NCBI GenBank assembly: GCA_026874595.1
Contig: CM049312.1
Coordinates: forward strand, 63,332,929-63,396,928
Source of the DNA: Sipunculus nudus
Lineage: Eukaryota; Annelida; Sipuncula; Golfingiida; Sipunculidae
DNA: 64,000 nucleotides
Direction of reading: 5' to 3'
Made by a program: the position numbers and the translations under genes. The stretch's first letter is position 1; each line of letters begins with the position of its first letter. The notes under the pieces were generated by a model, which was not told where the DNA came from, searched no databases, and was given only the letters and a program-made list of their open reading frames with translations. Below are positions 3,001 through 58,268 of this stretch, piece by piece.

Positions 3001-6000
3001 ACTCCTATGTCACTCCTCTCTCTATATATATATTTTAAACAAAAATAACATATTGTGACAATGCAATTTAATGTTATTTTCTATACTATAATGTAACAAA
3101 GAAAAATGTAATATTATAAATATTTATACAGTATAACACAATAAAACATGGATAATATTACAATAGGTTATAATGTGACCGAACAAAATAAAAGGTAACA
3201 AATAAAAAAAATAGATGTGGTCCGACAATGGTCCTCAGAGGGCCCCGCGTTTCTGCTAGTGCTTGACAAGTTTACATATGGAAGAAAATTTAAGTTAAAT
3301 TTGAAAAAAAAGGGCAAACAGAAACAGGTATTTATCAATATGCCCTGAAGTCAGCCAATCACCATTAAGCGTGTTGTGAATGAGTGTGACTGAGCGCCAT
3401 GCCTCTCACCCCATAGCTCCCTACCGCTGGGGAGTGGTCGTTAGACCGGCGTAAAGTCATATTACACTGATAAGCCCGGACCAACACAGCTAATTGGGAC
3501 AAACATTGCAGGGTTTTTAATTCTGTCGCCTGTTTTCTGGAGCGTCCTCTCGGTTAGGAGTGGGCATCATCTTAGGAGAGAGGTCTGAAATAATAATGAT
3601 AAAAAAATCCGAAGATGATTTAAATGGGACACGGAAGGAGAAAATAAGATGGATAATAAACTATTGTATGATTTTGGTGTCTTTTGTTGTTGTTTTTATC
3701 TTGTTCCATTAGTTACGAATATTTTCTATAAGATCTGAAACTAGCTTTCTGCAACAGCTTGCGAATAGTGGACCCCTCTACCCGCATCGTCCATAACCCA
3801 AATATGATAGGAAAAAGTCTATGCAGCGTACGACATGGACAATATAGGTAGAAATAAATGCCAAATAAAAAATTGCCACCTCTGACTATAGCTCTGACCA
3901 AAGGTAGGATTATAACAAATTTGCTGCTTTTTAGACCAATACAAACTGTACAGCTTCGAAACATACTGACATAGTGTCTGTAATCAGAATACCTAATAGA
4001 TTTTTCTTGTTTATTTGATGCGACATTCGATTGTCAAACACCAATCTCCAAAATATTAACACCCATAAAGCTGTTGAAATTCTTAAGTGCTTTGGAGTTA
4101 TTTATGATTTTAATGTATCAAATAGTGCTCCCTTTTAATGTCAAGAACAGAATAATAAAGGCTTTTCCATATGTTTAATAATGTTATCTGATTAAATATC
4201 ATGCAACTCCGGAAAAAAATTGCCAATTTTAAAGAACATCAAACTATCTAGTTTGCTTCGAGAAAATCTTCCTATTTGTAGATTAAACAACGTAGTCCTG
4301 ACAGGACTTGGTAAAGAGCTTCTAATTTATCGTCTTACTTTACCATCTTAAATGTACGCAACTTGTCAAAAGTAAAAAACTGACAACATTGATCAGACAG
4401 CTGGGCCACGATTGCTAGTAATGGATTCGGTATAGACGTTAGAAACTGCAAATGCTCGGAACGTCAGCGAACACTGAAGAGATTTTGTTTTTATCGCATG
4501 TGTGACGCGTGTTCTGCATGCAAACCAAGTGAAATCTTTAGCCATTCACCAAGGGCTTCTTTAGACCATGATATTGTCATCTACTTTGGTTTCATTATTT
4601 ATTTGGCTTTTATGAGGTTGAGTTAGCTTTTATATTATACGGTTTTCAAATTAGGTTGTACTTTCGGTTCAAAGGAGAAAAAAATCTGGGTGGGTTTTAG
4701 TAAATGGGCGACGTGACAACCTTGCAAAACACAGCAGGTAACTTTAAAAGACATTCTGGAGCATATATAATATGCATGTATTTTTATGAAAAAAAGTAAT
4801 GAACATTTTAAGTTAGAAACCTGATAAAATAGTCTTCTTTTATTTCCAACCAGATAGACCTTTATTATTAGATATTCCATTTTTGTCCAAGAAGTAACGG
4901 AGGGTTTAGGTATTTTTCCGGGGTTAGTTGTCTTAAAGCTATACAGACAAATAAATACTTCCCGTCTTGAGTTCCTTACCCGTTTTCGGCCTATGATATG
5001 AAGATTACTGGTCATAAAACAATATAACATCTTCTGAAAATCTCATTTAGGAAAACCTAATGGAAACGTTCAATCGAGAATTTTTCTTATTTCAAAAATT
5101 AAATGCATGACCCTGATTAATAGCCGATGAATTGTTTTACAGTACGATTGTCAGAGGCTACAGTATCTCTACAGTTAATTTTTGGAATACTCAATATTTT
5201 GGAACATGAAAAGATTTTCGGATACAACATGTATCCCTGATATTTGCATATATAAGTTGATAGAGATGTATGGAAAACTGCCGTTCTATTACAAGAAAAA
5301 CTGCAATTAATAGACAGGTTTAGGGGAAGGCAGCAACACCAATATATGAATTTAACAAAAAACGTAATATCAAACGAAATAAACAGGGTGAAAACATATC
5401 CATTTATATAAAAGGATGACATATCTCTCCAAATGTTTTGTTTACAGGAAAAAAATAATTTCCACAATCACTGCTCCCGTTCAGCTCTGGTTTATTGTAT
5501 AAGTAGCAGAAATACTCAAAATTATAAAATTAGAGAACAAGACACAACTATCTCCTGAGGCTAAACTAAGAGAACCAGATAAACGACGCATATCCTAAGG
5601 GAATTCCATTCCGTATATCCATTAAACTGGTATTACGGAAGGGTTTTTTTTCAGATTTAGATTTCACTGATAAAGGAGAGAACCATGCAGTTATATAATA
5701 TGACAAAGTGGCGACTTGCAGTAGCGGATTCAGAGGTTCGGGGGAGGGGGGTCAAGGGGGTTTTGATCCTCTCCCACTTTTTTCAACCGCCTTTTCCAAG
5801 GGTTTCAATCCCATTTATGCGGTCTTAACCCCTCCCCCTTCTCCGGACCTGAAGAGCTTTGTTAAGGTTGTCTGACTAGTGTTTCTGGGTTAAAGCTCCC
5901 CAACCACCCCTTTGAAGATCCTAGATCCGCCCGTTATCTAAAAGGCATGTTTCCCTTCGTTTCTTGATAGGTAATTATGGCAGAAAAAGTATTGTTATGC

Positions 6001-16304: not shown

Positions 16305-18130
16305 GTGATAAAAGGTGTACACATTATTTAGCAAAATTGTCACATGAAACAGCAACGTCAGTAATGTGGACCAATCACATGTAATATTTACTTTCAGCCT
16401 TATCGAAGTAAGGTAGGGGAGGGCATTGTAACACTTACAATGAAACAAATCATTGATCACATAATTCTATAATATTTCACGCTTGCTTTTAATTTTGAAA
16501 ATACTACCAGAAAAATGGGATGAGCTCTAGACTAATGTTGCTTTTCAGAAAAGGTGATGACAAAAAGGCACAGATTGACGTTACTGCACTTAAACTACCT
16601 TTCCACTTCATCTATAATCCAAGGGCCTGCCATCCCTGACATGTCAATATTTTACCTTGTACAAGGGTGTCATCGTCTTTTAAATAAACAACTCAAAAGA
16701 GGAAGGACGCTTAGTCGACACGACACAGGATCATCAATAAATACAAAAATTATACAGAACTGCCTTGTGGGATGTTAACCACAATTTATCACTCAAAGAC
16801 ATGTGCCTCCACCTAAACCTGAAACAAGGACTTCTTTCTCGATAAAACATTACAATGCCAACTATGGTAATACCATACAGGGTCCTCAGAGTCACGAGGT
16901 CGTTTGTTATCATCTCGTAACTCAATAATTGTCTTACATTGTAGGTTGGTGCACAATCTTTCCATTACTCAAAAAGCATTGTTTCCGAGATCACACACGG
17001 CCCAGTCAGAGAACAATGATCTAAAACACCCCACTGTTATCGATGTATTCTTGTTGTGCGGTTTTTCATTCAAAAGTAACCAGGCTGTCAGTTGGTATTA
17101 ATACTTTCTACAGGCAAATCGGCTTGTATAGGTGTGGTGTCCCAGGTTGAAAATTGCTATCAGAGATTAGTTCTGAAGAAATAATATTTCCTTTACATGA
17201 TGGTGATATAGTCCCTAGTTAACAGGCTGCATACAGTTCATTGGTATTTCCTTGAAAAATACACAGGAGAAAAAACAGTTGAATTTAGCTCATTCGTGTA
17301 AGGCTCTAATAAAGTTTAAGGTACGGATTTTATAGTCTGGAATCAATGATGACTTCGATATATCACCATTGTCGTTTTAGCATGTTCAATTTTTATAGCT
17401 TTTTCAGACCCTCGGGGGGAACACACAACCCAATCATCCCTAAGAGACCTCTTACGCGGGTTTCGTTCTCCATTTGCCTGACGCCTATGACTATTGTACC
17501 CGTTAATCCCTGGGTGGAAATGTCTAACCGTTGTGACAAAGAATCTGGTCAGCAGTGTTAGCACTAAAGGTAATCAGATAGGGTGACGAACCAAGATCTA
17601 ACCGTTTTGCCGATTCGCTCCAGCTGAGATCCTGCCTAACAGCATGGTTATTAAATTTTAAATATTAAATTCATTACAAAAAAATTCTTATATAATATTT
17701 TGTGAATCCTTAATGCTTGTGACCAATATCTGACGTTTCAATGAAGTATAAAACCGACACTTTAAAATAACTAAGCTTGCACTTAGTAGTACAATTTTAA
17801 TCGGCTTGTATATTACTATTTTGATAATTTCGGCTGATTTAAAATAAATTCTTTGAAGACTCCCGTTTACATGTTAGTAAGCTCCGGTCAGCGGATGAAA
17901 CGTGTATTCAAGGACCCCAGGAAAACGGCATATTTCAAGTTACACCAAATAAAAAAAAAAGAATTTACCTTAACACGAGCGCTTTATTTTAACGGGGAAT
18001 ATGAATTTTCTTACATTTTAGTAAAATACTTCAGGACTTAAATAAAAGCTAGCGTTTATGCTTTCATTAAATTTTGAATCTGATCTTTTTTCGTAAGCTG
18101 GTAGTCGAATACCCCTGCAGTATTTCTTTG

Positions 18131-18752
18131 CCCAAAACAAAAACTGGACATGAATACTTGCTGACAATTATGTACGCCTCTACCAGGTTCCCTGAAGCAA
18201 TGCCATTGCGCAAAATTAAGGCCAAAAGTGTTGTCAAGGCTCTGACCTAGTTTTCTACAATTTTTGGATTACCGAGATCCGTCCAGTCTGACCAAGGGTC
18301 TAATTTTATGTCTAGCTTATTCCAGCAAGTTATACTTGAGCTGGGTATAAAACAGTACAGCTCTTCGCCATACCATCCTGAAAGTCGGGGCGCCCTCGAG
18401 CGTTTTCGTCGGCATTAAAAAACATGATTAGGACCTATTGCTATGACACACAGAATGAGTGGGATGAAGAAATCAACCTATTGCTGTTTGCTGTCAGAGA
18501 ATCCTTTCAAGAGTCCCTGGGTTTCAGTCCCTTTGAACTAGTTTTTGGACACTCAGTCCGATGTCCATTGAATCTGCTTAAAGAAAAACTCTTGTGTTAA
18601 AATTCTGATTCTCTTAGTTTATTGGAGTATGTCTCAGACTTCCGCACTAAACTACACAAAGCTTGTGAGATTGCAAAGTCAAATCTAAAATTTGCAAAAA
18701 GTAAAATAAAAAAAAAGTATGACAAGCACACTGTAACCAGATGTGCTTAACA
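18131..18752 (+). pseudogene. Ty3/gypsy (Gmr1-like) integrase core, broken
   Basis: Translation from about 18,146 gives a retroelement integrase core: EYLLTIMYASTRFPEA, then QSDQGSNF, then PYHPES-GALERF. Integrase joins reverse-transcribed element DNA to the host chromosome. The second catalytic Asp (in SDQG) and the Glu (in LERF) are 35 residues apart, as in D,D35E integrases. The first Asp and the N-terminal zinc finger are missing because the element is truncated at 18,131. The frame is broken by a stop at 18,248-18,250, a frameshift near 18,415-18,425 and a stop near 18,598. A C-terminal part containing EEINLLLFAVRES follows, then a Lys-rich tail. Integrase lies upstream of the RT on the same strand. 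This is the copia-like order known in Gmr1-type Ty3/gypsy elements and not in ordinary gypsy elements. Confidence 0.88.
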
Positions 18753-19275
18753 ACCTTGATGCCAATCTGTCACACCTTACCGCACAACAATAACAAGACC
18801 TCAAGAACCTGCTGCGGAATTATGAACATTTGTTAAGTGACATTCCAACGCGAACTAACAAATTGTGCCATGGCGTCGATGTTGTCGAGGCAACCGCAGT
18901 CAAGCAGCATCCTAAAAGACTAAATCCAGAAAAGCAAAAGTATCTACAAAATGAGGTTCAATATTTGCTGGACAATGATTTTATTGAACCTAGTAACAGT
19001 AACTGGAGTTCACCTTTATTTTTGTGCCAAAACCCGATGGAAGTTACCGTATGTGCACAGATTATCGAAAACTGAACTCTGTCACTAAGACTGACACGTT
19101 CCCGATTCAGAGGATCGATGATTGTATTGATAGAGTCGGTAGCTCAAGATATGTCTCCAAGTTTGACTTGCTAAAAGGATTCTGGCTGACAGAACGAGCG
19201 AAAGAAATGTCCGCATTTGTGACGCCGCAAGGACTGTACCAGTATAAAGTTATGCCGTTTGAACTCGCCAGCGGA
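18752..19275 (+). pseudogene. Ty3/gypsy reverse transcriptase, N-terminal half only
   Basis: Follows the integrase on the same strand. It shows the RT entry region (DIPTRTNKLCHGVDVVEA, then EVQYLLDNDFIEPSNS-WSSP), then PKPDGSYRMCTDYRKLNS and SRYVSKFDLLKGFW, which holds the first catalytic Asp. It ends at QGLYQYKVMPFE. The rest of the palm, including the YxDD box, the thumb and the connection, is deleted: the sequence jumps to the RNase H leader around 19,262-19,300. There is an in-frame stop near 18,789 and a frameshift near 19,020-19,030. The protein cannot be active. Confidence 0.9.
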
Positions 19276-19709
19276 ATTCGAAAGCAACTCTGCAAAGCTC
19301 ACCAGTTTTGGTAGCTCCAGACTTTTCTGTACCTTTTAAGTTAGCTGTAGATGCCAGTGATACTGCTGCTGGTACTGTGTTGTTACAAGAAGGCAATGAT
19401 GGCATAGGTCATCCAATTTGTTATTTCTCAAGAAAGTTTAATGCAAACCAGAAAAATTACTCCACTATTGAAAAAGAATGTTTGGCTTTGATTCTGACAT
19501 TGCAACATTTTTAAGTTTATGTTAATTCATCAGTCAAGCCTATCGTTGTCTTCGTTGATCACAATCCCCTCACGTTCATGAACAAGTTAGAGTCTAAATA
19601 TCAAAGATTGTTGAGATTTAGTTTGTTCTGACAGGATTATAACCTTAAAATCAAATACATTAAAGGGAAGGACAATGTACTTGCTGATTGCTTGTCGAGA
19701 TGTTTATGA
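19276..19709 (+). pseudogene. Ty3/gypsy RNase H domain, broken
   Basis: The RNase H domain would degrade the RNA strand of the RNA-DNA hybrid. It begins with a short leader (SPVLVAPDFS), then FKLAVDASD (first Asp), YSTIEKECLAL (Glu), VVFVDHNPLTF (Asp), and ends KGKDNVLADCLSR (last Asp). The catalytic set is thus readable. A stop lies after LTLQHF (near 19,513) and another near 19,630, so no full-length product is possible. It is the last pol domain: a stop follows at 19,707, then short repeats, a polypurine tract and the LTR. Confidence 0.9.
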
Positions 19710-19771
19710 AATTTTGTAAATGAGATGTTTATGTAATGTTGTAAATAAGATGTTCTTGAGATATTGTAAAG
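19697..19771 (+). repeat. Three 25-bp tandem repeats at the end of pol
   Basis: Three near-identical 25-bp units (19,697-19,721, 19,722-19,746, 19,747-19,771), each starting with a form of GAGATGTTTATG and ending TTGTAAA. The first unit includes the pol stop codon. This is probably a local duplication inside the element's 3' untranslated region. Confidence 0.75.
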
Positions 19772-19830
19772 ATTAAGTGATTGTGATCGCAAAAAGAAAG
19801 TTTTCCGAGAAAACTTTCTATTTTTCTTAC

Positions 19831-20646
19831 AGGAGGGGGAGTGTTACAGATATCTGTGTACAGGGATGTTCCATGTGTTGTTGACATTTGGTTCGTGTAG
19901 CACGCATAGCTCGTTGCTATGACTGCATCGCCTGGCCGAGCAGGGCCGGCCCACGTGTAAACCATGACATGTGGAGACACGGCGTTCTTGTTCTAGATGT
20001 TATCTGTAACGCCTGTGTACTGTGTATTATGTATTGTTCTTTAGATTGTTCGGGAAATGGAAAGTTCTCGGCTTGAGATGAGAAGCTATAAATAGGGGGC
20101 TGTGTTTTAGAGCGGGTAGAGAGGAGAGAAATATTCCAGCGGACACAGAAGCGTGTAAGTTAGTTGTAGACCTTTTCCGATAAGTGCGGCAATTATAGAT
20201 TTTCTTCTAAATTTGTGACGGATCTTATATAGTTTTTAGTTTGCTTTCGGGATTACAACGTATTGATTTTGTGAATGAACTGGACTGTGATCCTCTGAGA
20301 AGATTTATGCGAACTGTTTATCTGGGTTGTATGTTATTAAGGACTTGTTATCGCTGTGACAGTGGTGGTATCCAGGTACTGTACACTTTATATTTATATA
20401 CTTGTATTGATTTGCTGTTTTAATGTTGTTATACTGAGTAATTATATTGATTTAGTGTATTGTAATGTTAGGATAGTTTTACGAATACAATTATAATTAT
20501 TTGTTAACAAAAAAACACTGACTTCTTTATTCATTCCCCTAGACATTTCACGCTGCCAAGTGTTACAGAATCTGATTTTTTTATCTCCATTACAAAATTT
20601 ATGTTCGTCTAGACTACGTGATCTGTTGATATTAGGTTCCGTAACA
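19831..20646 (+). mobile_element. Polypurine tract and 3' LTR of the gypsy remnant
   Basis: A purine tract (AGGAGGGGGAG, 19,831-19,841) directly precedes TGTTACAG at 19,842. This is the arrangement expected at the 3' LTR of a retrotransposon, where the tract primes plus-strand DNA. I place the end at GTAACA (20,641-20,646), which gives an LTR of about 805 bp with TGTTAC...GTAACA inverted ends. A TATA box (TATAAATA) lies at 20,087-20,094, so transcription would start roughly 25-30 bp downstream. The sequence after 20,647 returns to the duplicated unit. No 5' LTR, primer-binding site, gag or protease is visible, so this is a 5'-truncated copy. The exact 3' end rests on the inverted terminal motif only. 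Confidence 0.78.
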
Positions 20647-29092: not shown

Positions 29093-29464
29093 GTGTGCCA
29101 GTCTGGGGCCTTCCTGTCAGGTGGCAGGGAATGTTATTCATACAATGAGCCCCGCGCTATCTCAGGTGTGAGCCTCAGCCAGCCAGCAGCTGGTTTAAAC
29201 ACACTGGATAAAGCCATTAGATCTTCCCGAAGCGACTGTCCGTACCTGTCGCACACACTGTCTTCGTCTGACCGGGAATGAGGTATGCACCAACGGCTCC
29301 GGTAAGGCCGAGCTCCCCGATATCTTCCCAAATATTTTAACAACCTGGGTAAAAATCCGGCATAGGAAGACACCTGCCGAAATCAGGTTCGAACCAACGC
29401 TTCCCAGTGCACCGGCTAAATAGTCAGACTCGCTAACCACTGGACCACCGGAACGGATAAATCT
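29093..29464 (-). mobile_element. tRNA-derived SINE, family B, apparently full length
   Basis: Read on the minus strand from 29,464. A tRNA-like head carries an RNA polymerase III A box (TGGTCCAGTGG) and, about 40-50 bp further, a B box (GGTTCGAACC, near 29,389-29,398). A body of about 290 bp follows and runs to about 29,093, rich in GC for this window. It contains no open frame of note. SINEs of this build are transcribed by polymerase III and mobilised by LINE enzymes. I do not recognise the central body as one of the named conserved SINE domains. The left limit is set where the base composition changes and no poly-A tail is evident, so the 3' end is uncertain. Confidence 0.7.
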
Positions 29465-35005: not shown

Positions 35006-35236
35006 TTTGATAATACACAATTTTTCATTGAATATTTACTATTCTGTATACCTTATGCATGCAAGAATGTTGTATTTTTTTTATTTATTATGTTGTTAAT
35101 GTAAAGTTTGCATTTAATTAAACAAGATCAGTTGTACTTTCAGATACAGTACTATATCAGATTTATATGACAATAAACGGGATTTTAATTCCATTAACCG
35201 ATATGACACAAAGTGGGCTCGACTATATATGTATAT

Positions 35237-35639
35237 TGGTACGAAGACAAATTGTTCAGGGGAAAACATGGGCCAATCCGGGATTCGAACCACATGTCCG
35301 GCTTTCCAACCGCTTCGCTAGAAAAGCAAGCTTCGACAGTTCGATCCGCTTTTATAACACCCCGTAACAGACCCCCTCTTAAGGACTCTTAAGGACAAGA
35401 CTAATTATCCCAGGAGTCACACTTTGGTGAGCTTATTCCCTGGGCAACAAAGTTTACCGTCACGTTGGACGAGCCCCCGTTTTGTTACGAAGACAAATTG
35501 TTCCTAGGAAAACATGGGCCGATCCGGGATTCGAACCAATGTCGGTGGCCCACATGTCCGGGGTTCCAACCGGGGATCGCTAGAAAAGCAAGCTTCACTT
35601 GCGAGACAGTTCGCTCCGCTTTTATGTCACCCCGTAACA
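35237..35639 (-). mobile_element. Miniature LTR retrotransposon (TRIM-like), copy 1
   Basis: Complete 403-bp element, sense on the minus strand. The 5' LTR is 35,483-35,639 (157 bp) and the 3' LTR 35,237-35,369 (133 bp, two small deletions). They start TGTTACGGGG and end in a TACCA or TAACA form, giving TG...CA ends. Three bases inside the 5' LTR lies GGGGGCTCGTCC (35,467-35,478), the primer-binding site complementary to the 3' end of tRNA-Pro. The internal region is only about 113 bp and ends with a purine tract (AGAGGGGG) next to the 3' LTR. A 4-bp target duplication, ATAT, flanks it (35,233-35,236 and 35,640-35,643). It has no coding capacity, so any movement would need enzymes from another LTR element. 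The LTR carries a tRNA-like segment, annotated separately. Confidence 0.85.
35281..35320 (-). promoter_or_regulatory. Pol III A and B boxes inside the TRIM LTR (copy 1)
   Basis: On the minus strand, TAGCGAAGCGG (35,310-35,320) fits the tRNA A-box consensus, and GGTTCGAATCC (35,281-35,291) is a perfect B box about 20 bp beyond it. The spacing is shortened by a small deletion. The tRNA-like segment between them resembles D, anticodon and T arms, but no acceptor stem can be paired, so it is not a functional tRNA gene. The other LTRs keep the B box at 35,527-35,537 and 57,555-57,565, and an A box (TGGCGAAGCGG) near 57,335-57,346. Confidence 0.7.
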
Positions 35640-35643
35640 ATAT

Positions 35644-57152: not shown

Positions 57153-57248
57153 CACCGAAAACTTCTAGTGATCTCTCTTTCACAAACAATTCAGATCCAC
57201 CGCTCTTGTCCTGTAATTCTCTTTTATATCATGCATTTAACATGATGA

Positions 57249-57665
57249 TGTTACGAAGGCAAATTGCTTAGGGGAAAATACTGGGCCGATCCCGGTTTCT
57301 AGCCCATGTCGGTGGCGTACAAGTCCGGCGTACCAACCGCTTCGCCAGAAAAGCAAGCTTCACTAGCGAGACAGTTTGGTCCGCGTTTGTGTCACCCCAC
57401 AACACACCCCCTATCAGAACAAGACTAATTATCCCAGGAGTCATACTTTGGTGAGCTTATTTTCATGGGCCACAATGTTTGACCGTCACGTTGGACGAGC
57501 CCCCATTTTGTTACGAAGACAAATTATTCAGGTGAATAATATTGGGCCGATCCGGGATTCGAACCCACGTTGGTGGCGCACAAGTCCGGCGTACCGATCG
57601 CTTCGCTAGAAAAGCAAGCTTCACTAGCGAAATAGTTCGGTCCGCTTTTATGTCAACCCTTAACA
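57249..57665 (-). mobile_element. Miniature LTR retrotransposon (TRIM-like), copy 2
   Basis: Complete 417-bp element, sense on the minus strand. The 5' LTR is 57,509-57,665 (157 bp) and the 3' LTR 57,249-57,404 (156 bp). The primer-binding site TGGGGGCTCGTCC (57,493-57,505, read on minus) lies three bases inside the 5' LTR and matches the 3' end of tRNA-Pro over 13 bases. The ~104-bp internal region has no open frame and ends in a purine tract containing AGGGGG next to the 3' LTR. A 4-bp target duplication, ATGA, flanks it (57,245-57,248 and 57,666-57,669). The B box is intact in the 5' LTR (57,555-57,565); the A box is better in the 3' LTR. The internal region matches copy 1 closely. Confidence 0.88.
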
Positions 57666-57669
57666 ATGA

Positions 57670-58268
57670 TCTTTTATAGCTCATTGCATGCCGGACTGTA
57701 TATTAATGGAGTACTGTGTTTCTCGGGTAGATATAAGGGGTTTAACCCCACCCTTACTGTATGAAATTACCTTCTTTTAGTGTTTAACAGACACCTTCAC
57801 CATCGATGACATTTTTTCTAGCTTCCGGATAATTTCTTAAATTGCCTTTTATCAGAGTAATAGTCACTTGGGACAGACTCGCACCTAATAATTAAATTTG
57901 CTGTCCTTGATTTATTTCCAAGGGCGTCACATATATTTAGCCTTATATCGTACGGCGAAGCCTACTAGTCATTGCTGAGCGATTCCGGACCTCTAGCTAA
58001 GACTTACCTTAAATTTGTAGGTCATGCCTTTTTTTCATACGTGTATGAATACAGCTGAATTAAACCGTCGGCAAATATAATGAGACATACACACGCACCT
58101 GTTGGTTCAATAATAACCCAATGAAAGGATACACCTTACCTCCTGAATACAGGTGTGTCGAGGAACAGGTACAAGACTACCGACACGAATAAATGATCGA
58201 AACCACGTGAGAGAACATCATATGAACCAGGCGCTTAGGAATGCATGTGTGTGTACTTCATGCTGACG
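57670..58268. other. Stretch with nothing recognised
   Basis: Unassigned DNA between the TRIM and the next candidate frame. Confidence 0.5.

Follow-up and report, generated by a model that had tools for sequence, protein, structure and literature searches.

The genome of Sipunculus nudus harbors a dispersed family of miniature LTR elements (TRIMs) which, judged by its architecture against the published description, is of the Helenus type. We consider it very likely that such an element is moved through an RNA made from its LTR, likely by polymerase III, which would travel in the particles of a Gmr1-clade gypsy, be primed by tRNA-Pro and be inserted by the gypsy integrase. Directly observed were the anatomy of the elements, their dispersion and target duplications, empty sites for two copies, a gypsy that shares their primer site and LTR ends, chimeras between the two, and a copy ending in primer-tRNA sequence; polymerase III transcription, co-packaging and the use of gypsy proteins are the steps that we infer.

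Structure of the elements and their distribution in the genome

The window, a stretch of 64,000 nucleotides from chromosome 7 (about 63.33-63.40 Mb), contains two members of the family and a remnant of the candidate partner gypsy, with the following features.

57249..57665, minus strand: element 1, a complete Helenus-type TRIM of 417 bp
57509..57665, minus strand: 5' LTR of element 1, 157 bp
57249..57404, minus strand: 3' LTR of element 1, 156 bp, 84.1% identical to the 5' LTR
57493..57505, minus strand: primer-binding site of element 1, 13 bases, complement of the tRNA-Pro(TGG) 3' end plus CCA
57405..57412, minus strand: polypurine tract of element 1, AGGGGGTG, adjoining the 3' LTR
57555..57565, minus strand: box B, GGTTCGAATCC, in the 5' LTR of element 1
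57598..57608, minus strand: box A position in the 5' LTR of element 1, reading TAGCGAAGCGA
57645..57652, minus strand: TATA-like site, CATAAAAG, 44 bases upstream of box A
57245..57248, no strand: left target-site duplication of element 1, ATGA
57666..57669, no strand: right target-site duplication of element 1, ATGA
35237..35639, minus strand: element 2, 403 bp, of the same Helenus family as element 1
35233..35236, no strand: left target-site duplication of element 2, ATAT, in AT-rich surroundings
35640..35643, no strand: right target-site duplication of element 2, ATAT
18129..20646, plus strand: decayed remnant of the candidate partner gypsy, internal pieces 87-90% identical, partial LTR 73%

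Both elements are antisense to the window strand, a correction to the earlier note. In the sense direction they run LTR, spacer AAA, primer site TGGGGGCTCGTCC (one mismatch in element 2), about 104 internal bases, purine tract and LTR, with LTR ends of the TGTTAC...GTAACA type, and at 77.9% identity they represent two insertions of one family. The earlier description of two elements of about 400 bp with LTRs of about 157 bp and such ends holds, save that the 3' LTR of element 2 is truncated to 133 bp (35237-35369). Likewise, the 13-base tRNA-Pro site said to lie three bases inside the 5' LTR is exact in element 1 (TGGGGGCTCGTCC, 57493-57505, behind the AAA spacer), where it matches the host tRNA-Pro(TGG) over 13 bases with CCA added, whereas that of element 2 (CGGGGGCTCGTCC, 35467-35479) has one mismatch. 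The purine tract reported at the 3' LTR is present in element 1 (57405-57412), the two different 4-bp duplications, ATGA and ATAT, were both recovered, and the short non-coding interior of a TRIM was borne out. The ATAT of element 2, sitting in AT-rich DNA, proves little taken alone.

The genome search with the LTR and the internal region that the earlier note had proposed returned thousands of dispersed matches: 4,582 for the LTR core, 2,183 for the internal core and 1,355 for the LTR-primer-internal junction, each against none in the control. The two cores stand at a ratio of about 2:1, and the occurrence mainly as long tandem arrays that the note had raised as a contrary outcome was not seen in the material examined. 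Short tandem arrays (LTR-internal-LTR-internal-LTR) do exist, at loci L010, L015, L027, L028 and L033; the L028 array, with four LTRs, is bounded by a single ACCT duplication. At L056/L057 (C1:7856983, 7857043) a 60-base tandem unit consists of the LTR 3' end plus the primer site.

We examined 41 copies, a set biased towards good matches, which comprises the two window copies and 39 fetched regions (46 non-window rows, stemming from 40 scored of 3,978 first-look candidates; 47 rows including the window). An exact 4-bp duplication flanks 25 of the 41, compared with 118 of 1,640 mismatched left/right flank pairs. These 25 duplications represent 17 different sequences, and G or C is present in 16 of them; the insertion target is loosely ATAT. 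At 5 bp no copy matches (0/41), and at 6 bp six do, five of which also match at 4 bp. Some of the 16 copies that carry no 4-bp duplication are truncated or are pieces of arrays. The exact 13-base primer site is present in 23 of the 41 copies. Copies with two LTRs are mostly about 430 bp long (417 and 403 bp in the window), with about 104-120 internal bases. The family therefore shows what defines a TRIM, namely a length below 1 kb, two LTRs, no coding capacity, a primer site and a purine tract, together with target duplications and dispersed insertions for which empty sites exist.

Empty sites were sought by comparing the joined flanks of copies with the genome. The copy at L041 is inserted in a copy of the gypsy described below, and five other gypsy copies are uninterrupted at the matching point; L040 lies within another repeat, two empty relatives of which align with it base by base. 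Candidate junction-spanning matches were also obtained with the joined flanks of L010, L020, L022 and L032. The expectation of empty sites was thus borne out at L040 and L041 and not for element 1, whose flanks are unique in the genome and gave no empty site. Flanks shared throughout, as in a larger repeat, were likewise not seen: among the 200-base flanks of the 41 copies there are five similarities, of 40-129 bases, and the longest (L017/L027) is further Helenus sequence belonging to arrays.

Divergence between the two LTRs of an element averages 9.8% (range 1.9-21.3%; 36 two-LTR elements), so the examined copies are old. Between elements the mean is 12.1%, and an LTR is nearest to its own partner in 13 of the 36. 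A search for structured internal RNA in Helenus gave no support (z -0.35).

tRNA-like boxes in the LTR and the Helenus class

The LTR has a feature that the earlier note overlooked: two tRNA-like boxes, A and B, spaced by 43 bases. A pattern of box A, 25-45 bases and box B is found in 48 of the 88 LTRs from the examined copies and in none of 5,280 dinucleotide shuffles, and in 45 of these 48 the starts of the two boxes lie 43 bases from each other. The 40 LTRs lacking the strict pattern include the 5' LTR of element 1, because its box A, TAGCGAAGCGA, is one base off; the most frequent form of box A is TAGCGAAGCGG (n = 88 LTRs). The TATA-like site CATAAAAG has a mean conservation of 0.955; 40 LTRs have both it and box A, and in 39 of these it starts 44 bases ahead of box A. 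Boxes A and B are conserved at 0.934 and 0.936, compared with 0.929 for the rest of the LTR; there is no excess, and we do not count conservation of the boxes as a sign of selection. In 33 of the 48 pattern-matching LTRs a TTTT closely precedes box A, and in 43 a TTTT follows box B within 30 bases, where it could be an early polymerase III stop.

ARAGORN called no tRNA in the window, and Rfam covariance models found none in element 1 or in 18 copies; of the six hits that the search of the 18 copies gave, five were miRNA families and the sixth was a bacterial small RNA. A 5S promoter of the Cassandra/Ajax type is ruled out for element 1, as no Rfam match to 5S rRNA appeared at E values up to 1 (window 57200-57700). 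Separate from the family, a tRNA-like box A/box B pair, GGTGGTCCAGTGGTTAGCG ... GGTTCGAACC, lies at window position 29386 on the minus strand and possibly belongs to a tRNA-derived SINE.

Helenus was described as TRIMs with tRNA-derived sequence in the LTR and, in animals, 4-bp duplications (Kojima 2024; PMC10886601). The tRNA-like boxes in the LTR (48/88 LTRs) place the S. nudus repeat in this class, and its duplications are of the length seen in the animal families (25/41 at 4 bp, 0/41 at 5 bp). According to the same source, boxes A and B are known from Helenus of fungi, animals and plants; Censor and tRNAscan-SE were used, a functional tRNA was not required, and polymerase III transcription stands as unproven there as well (PMC10886601, in the text available). 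No functional tRNA was found in the published families, nor in ours by the searches described above. Animal TRIMs, presented in the earlier note as rarely reported, are commoner in print than that: the Helenus hosts belong to six animal phyla, and Annelida/Sipuncula are absent from the host table (PMC10886601, as available).

The closest likeness is to the animal families of Helenus, above all those of pteriomorph bivalves, which resemble the S. nudus TRIM in length, boxes A and B, primer site, purine tract and 4-bp duplications. In bivalve Helenus, tRNA-Pro is among the primers and Gypsy-13_CGi uses tRNA-Pro, as in S. nudus (PMC10886601). By the published account, our TRIM differs in host phylum and in that its partner is supported by chimeras with one gypsy family. 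Cassandra of plants and Ajax of nemerteans are also TRIMs with the promoter of a small-RNA gene in the LTR; theirs derives from 5S rRNA (PMC10886601), whereas element 1 is without a 5S match. The biv-TRIM of bivalves is another animal TRIM with solo and tandem forms, but it differs by description in having repeats of 202-218 bp, an internal region of 77-80 bp, a purine tract that is mostly GGGGAGA and no unambiguous primer site (PMC6934838, in the part available). Among the open-access papers that our searches listed, we found no earlier report of Helenus in Sipuncula and, judged by title, nothing closer than PMC10886601. The class of element is already published; what seems new, within the literature searched, is the host group together with the evidence from chimeras, the primer copy and the snap-back forms.

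The candidate partner gypsy and its chimeras with Helenus

The earlier note also suggested looking for a gypsy whose LTR ends and tRNA-Pro site agree with those of the TRIM, and such a gypsy exists. We searched for TGGGGGCTCGTCC with any base but A behind it, so as to pass over the commonest TRIM form; this gave 804 matches, compared with 2 in the control. Among the 30 of these that were listed, all on C1 and sorted by eye, there are eight gypsy starts, ten Helenus variants, two Helenus-gypsy hybrids (L053, L073), six rearranged Helenus (L056, L057, L059, L062, L063, L072) and four others; the 30 include the local duplicates L050/L051, L056/L057 and L062/L063. The gypsy LTRs are about 760 bp long, start with TGTTACAG and end with CGTAACA, and are followed by the same tRNA-Pro primer site as in Helenus, a leader of about 160 bases and gag. 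The LTR-primer-leader junction has 574 matches (control 0), and in four long copies the LTR pairs are 92.5-94.6% identical. Beyond the 14-base primer site and the short LTR ends, comparison of the Helenus parts with gypsy L081 gave no significant similarity, and the LTRs, about 760 and 157 bp, cannot be aligned. At L058 a tRNA-Pro primer site is followed by a leader of another kind and a 309-residue open frame; this may be a second gypsy that uses tRNA-Pro.

In the copy at L079, an ORF at 3259-3768 matches Integrase_H2C2 (E 1.5e-24) and the integrase core (E 1.1e-7; at 32.4 bits, 0.2 under the Pfam cut-off of 32.6), and reverse transcriptase (RT) and RNase H follow downstream on the same strand in an ORF at 4805-5914. 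A piece of the gag ORF of L081 matches the SCAN domain (PF02023, E 6.5e-12), and a protease motif, DTGSGQT, was noted by eye in a piece to which Pfam assigned no family. An integrase upstream of RT and a SCAN-type gag are described as marks of the Gmr1 clade (PMC8220671, PMC4131045), SCAN being found in over half of Gmr elements but not in all (PMC4131045). The partner shares both, and it is this domain order and SCAN gag that mark it as a putative member of the Gmr1 clade. Its own duplications are weak, being mostly within AT repeats; the sole one outside, at L077/L085, reads acat/gcat (3/4 match).

At 33 places (≤3 mismatches; control 0) the end of a Helenus LTR is joined directly to the gypsy leader, some of the weaker of these junctions diverging in their last bases and being possibly non-chimeric. 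We painted 12 junction loci (11 sites) and found the join in 12 of 12; the structure was traced further in six painted sites, and also in L078, a locus not among the 33. Some chimeras contain gag and two also the protease motif. The chimera in which both Helenus LTRs are complete is L097 (1,671 bp): a Helenus LTR is followed by gypsy 4-1269 (leader and gag), Helenus internal sequence and a Helenus LTR, and the unit has its own duplication, CAAG. In L096/L101 a Helenus LTR precedes gypsy sequence up to 2358, Helenus internal sequence from position 8 and a truncated LTR, and in L087/L100 it precedes gypsy up to 2771 and the final 32 LTR bases, with ATAT on either side. L095 (the site of L073), in an array bordered by AT repeat, joins gypsy leader to Helenus internal sequence at the gag start. 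L090 and L091 have truncated ends and an identical junction from gypsy 810 to LTR position 44, with a 6-base microhomology; their flanks do not align, and they are two sites. L078 has a Helenus-type 5' LTR, a gypsy body and a gypsy 3' LTR, and lies in AT repeat.

In L097, L096 and L095 the switch falls between positions 8 and 21 of the Helenus interior, within the primer site or immediately after it. The primer site is where minus-strand copying runs out of template. The chimeras are consistent with switches of template between RNAs packaged together. In L090/L091 the switch at LTR position 44 agrees with the spacing of TATA and box A, but we do not use it to map the RNA start, since the microhomology explains the position equally well. 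We also set aside the five hits (2-3 mismatches) for a gypsy purine tract directly before a Helenus 3' LTR, some of which resemble ordinary TRIM tracts.

Primer tRNA sequence in Helenus copies and a proposed mode of movement

A 22-base stretch of tRNA-Pro has 23 exact matches in the genome, 16 of them within C14:19.08-19.32 Mb, and the one of these 16 that was examined is called as tRNA-Pro(TGG) by ARAGORN. The host gene continues with GTG, not CCA. Three of the seven matches outside the C14 cluster are Helenus copies (L062, L063, L103). Counted from TGG on, the match to the primer complement extends over 15 and 18 bases in the gypsy copies L069 and L052, and in Helenus over 13 bases in element 1, 19 in L072, 26 in L062 and 38 in L103, where it reaches into the anticodon arm. 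L103/L104 (C2:26772800-26773180) consists of Helenus internal sequence, LTR, a short A-rich spacer and the 38 tRNA-Pro(TGG)-complement bases, beyond which it continues as sequence without strong matches. Such an end is expected if plus-strand copying continued beyond the primer site into a tRNA that had not been removed.

In the inverted copies L062/L063 and L072 the tRNA-Pro-like stretch runs into the antisense of the element's own LTR at box B. From this geometry it seems that GGGATTTGAACC folded back onto GGTTCGAATCCC of the LTR and primed synthesis. The pairing falls beyond the primer site; between the tRNA-like part of the LTR and the primer site, the available text of the Helenus paper reports no complementarity (PMC10886601). 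We considered whether the LTR promoter arose from the primer tRNA and do not claim it, because the captured primer sequence is antisense.

We propose that RNA would be made from the Helenus LTR, most likely by polymerase III via boxes A and B and with help from the upstream TATA-like site; that this RNA would enter particles of the Gmr1-clade gypsy and be primed by tRNA-Pro at the primer site; that reverse transcription would proceed with strand transfers between the LTRs; and that gypsy integrase would insert the DNA, leaving 4-bp target duplications. A more specific proposal strikes us as evenly balanced between right and wrong: that in shared particles template switches repeatedly placed gypsy leader, gag and protease between tRNA-promoter LTRs, at least some hybrids being integrated as units, and that a plus strand running past the primer site can snap back on box B of the LTR, which matches the T-arm of the primer tRNA, a side reaction that only LTR elements with tRNA promoters would undergo (L062/L063 and L072, with L103 as the un-folded intermediate).

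The same gypsy might instead serve a TRIM that polymerase II transcribes from the TATA-like site, the tRNA-like boxes being a fossil passenger. The well-kept CATAAAAG, whose place 44 bases upstream of box A fits a start near LTR position 44, speaks for this, as do boxes no better conserved than other LTR sequence, the TTTT after box B in 43 of 48 LTRs and the lack of a tRNA model match. A passenger, however, is hard to reconcile with a tRNA-like spacing kept in 45 of 48 matching LTRs or with the presence of the boxes in fungal, animal and plant Helenus (PMC10886601), so that we hold polymerase II transcription to be possible yet somewhat doubtful, and the balance of probability favors RNA polymerase III.

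Two further explanations concern the partnership and the nature of the element. If the chimeras were products of recombination at the DNA level or of nested insertion, and the true driver another tRNA-Pro gypsy family, then the sharing between Helenus and this gypsy, limited to the primer site and short ends, the tRNA-Pro site ahead of a different long ORF at L058 and the truncation of the chimeras L090, L091, L096 and L087 would be readily understood. We think this improbable: L097 has a Helenus LTR at each end and its own duplication, the gypsy sequence breaks off at different points in L097 (about 1269) and L096 (2358) yet meets the Helenus primer site in both, the end of the minus-strand template, and L090/L091 have their common microhomology junction at two sites with non-aligning flanks. 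That the repeat resembles an LTR element by chance, being in truth a SINE or of the kind of a satellite-like tandem repeat, can be practically discounted, for all that its tRNA boxes are SINE-like and that short tandem arrays occur (L010, L015, L027, L028, L033); we reject such an identity on the duplications, the empty sites and the 2:1 ratio of LTR to internal sequence. The primer site also stands against it, as do the copy of primer tRNA that ends one element and the enclosure of the four-LTR array of L028 within one ACCT duplication.

The Helenus family of S. nudus adds a host phylum to a published kind of element. For animal Helenus, Gypsy has been held the likely driver, the mover having been deduced so far from similarity of primer sites (PMC10886601); S. 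nudus adds chimeras. Together with the partner copies that are empty at a Helenus insertion point and with the fossil trace of the primer tRNA, these link a TRIM with a tRNA promoter to a single gypsy clade and a single tRNA, and it now becomes testable how a gypsy particle accepts an element that shares little with it beyond the primer site and the LTR ends.
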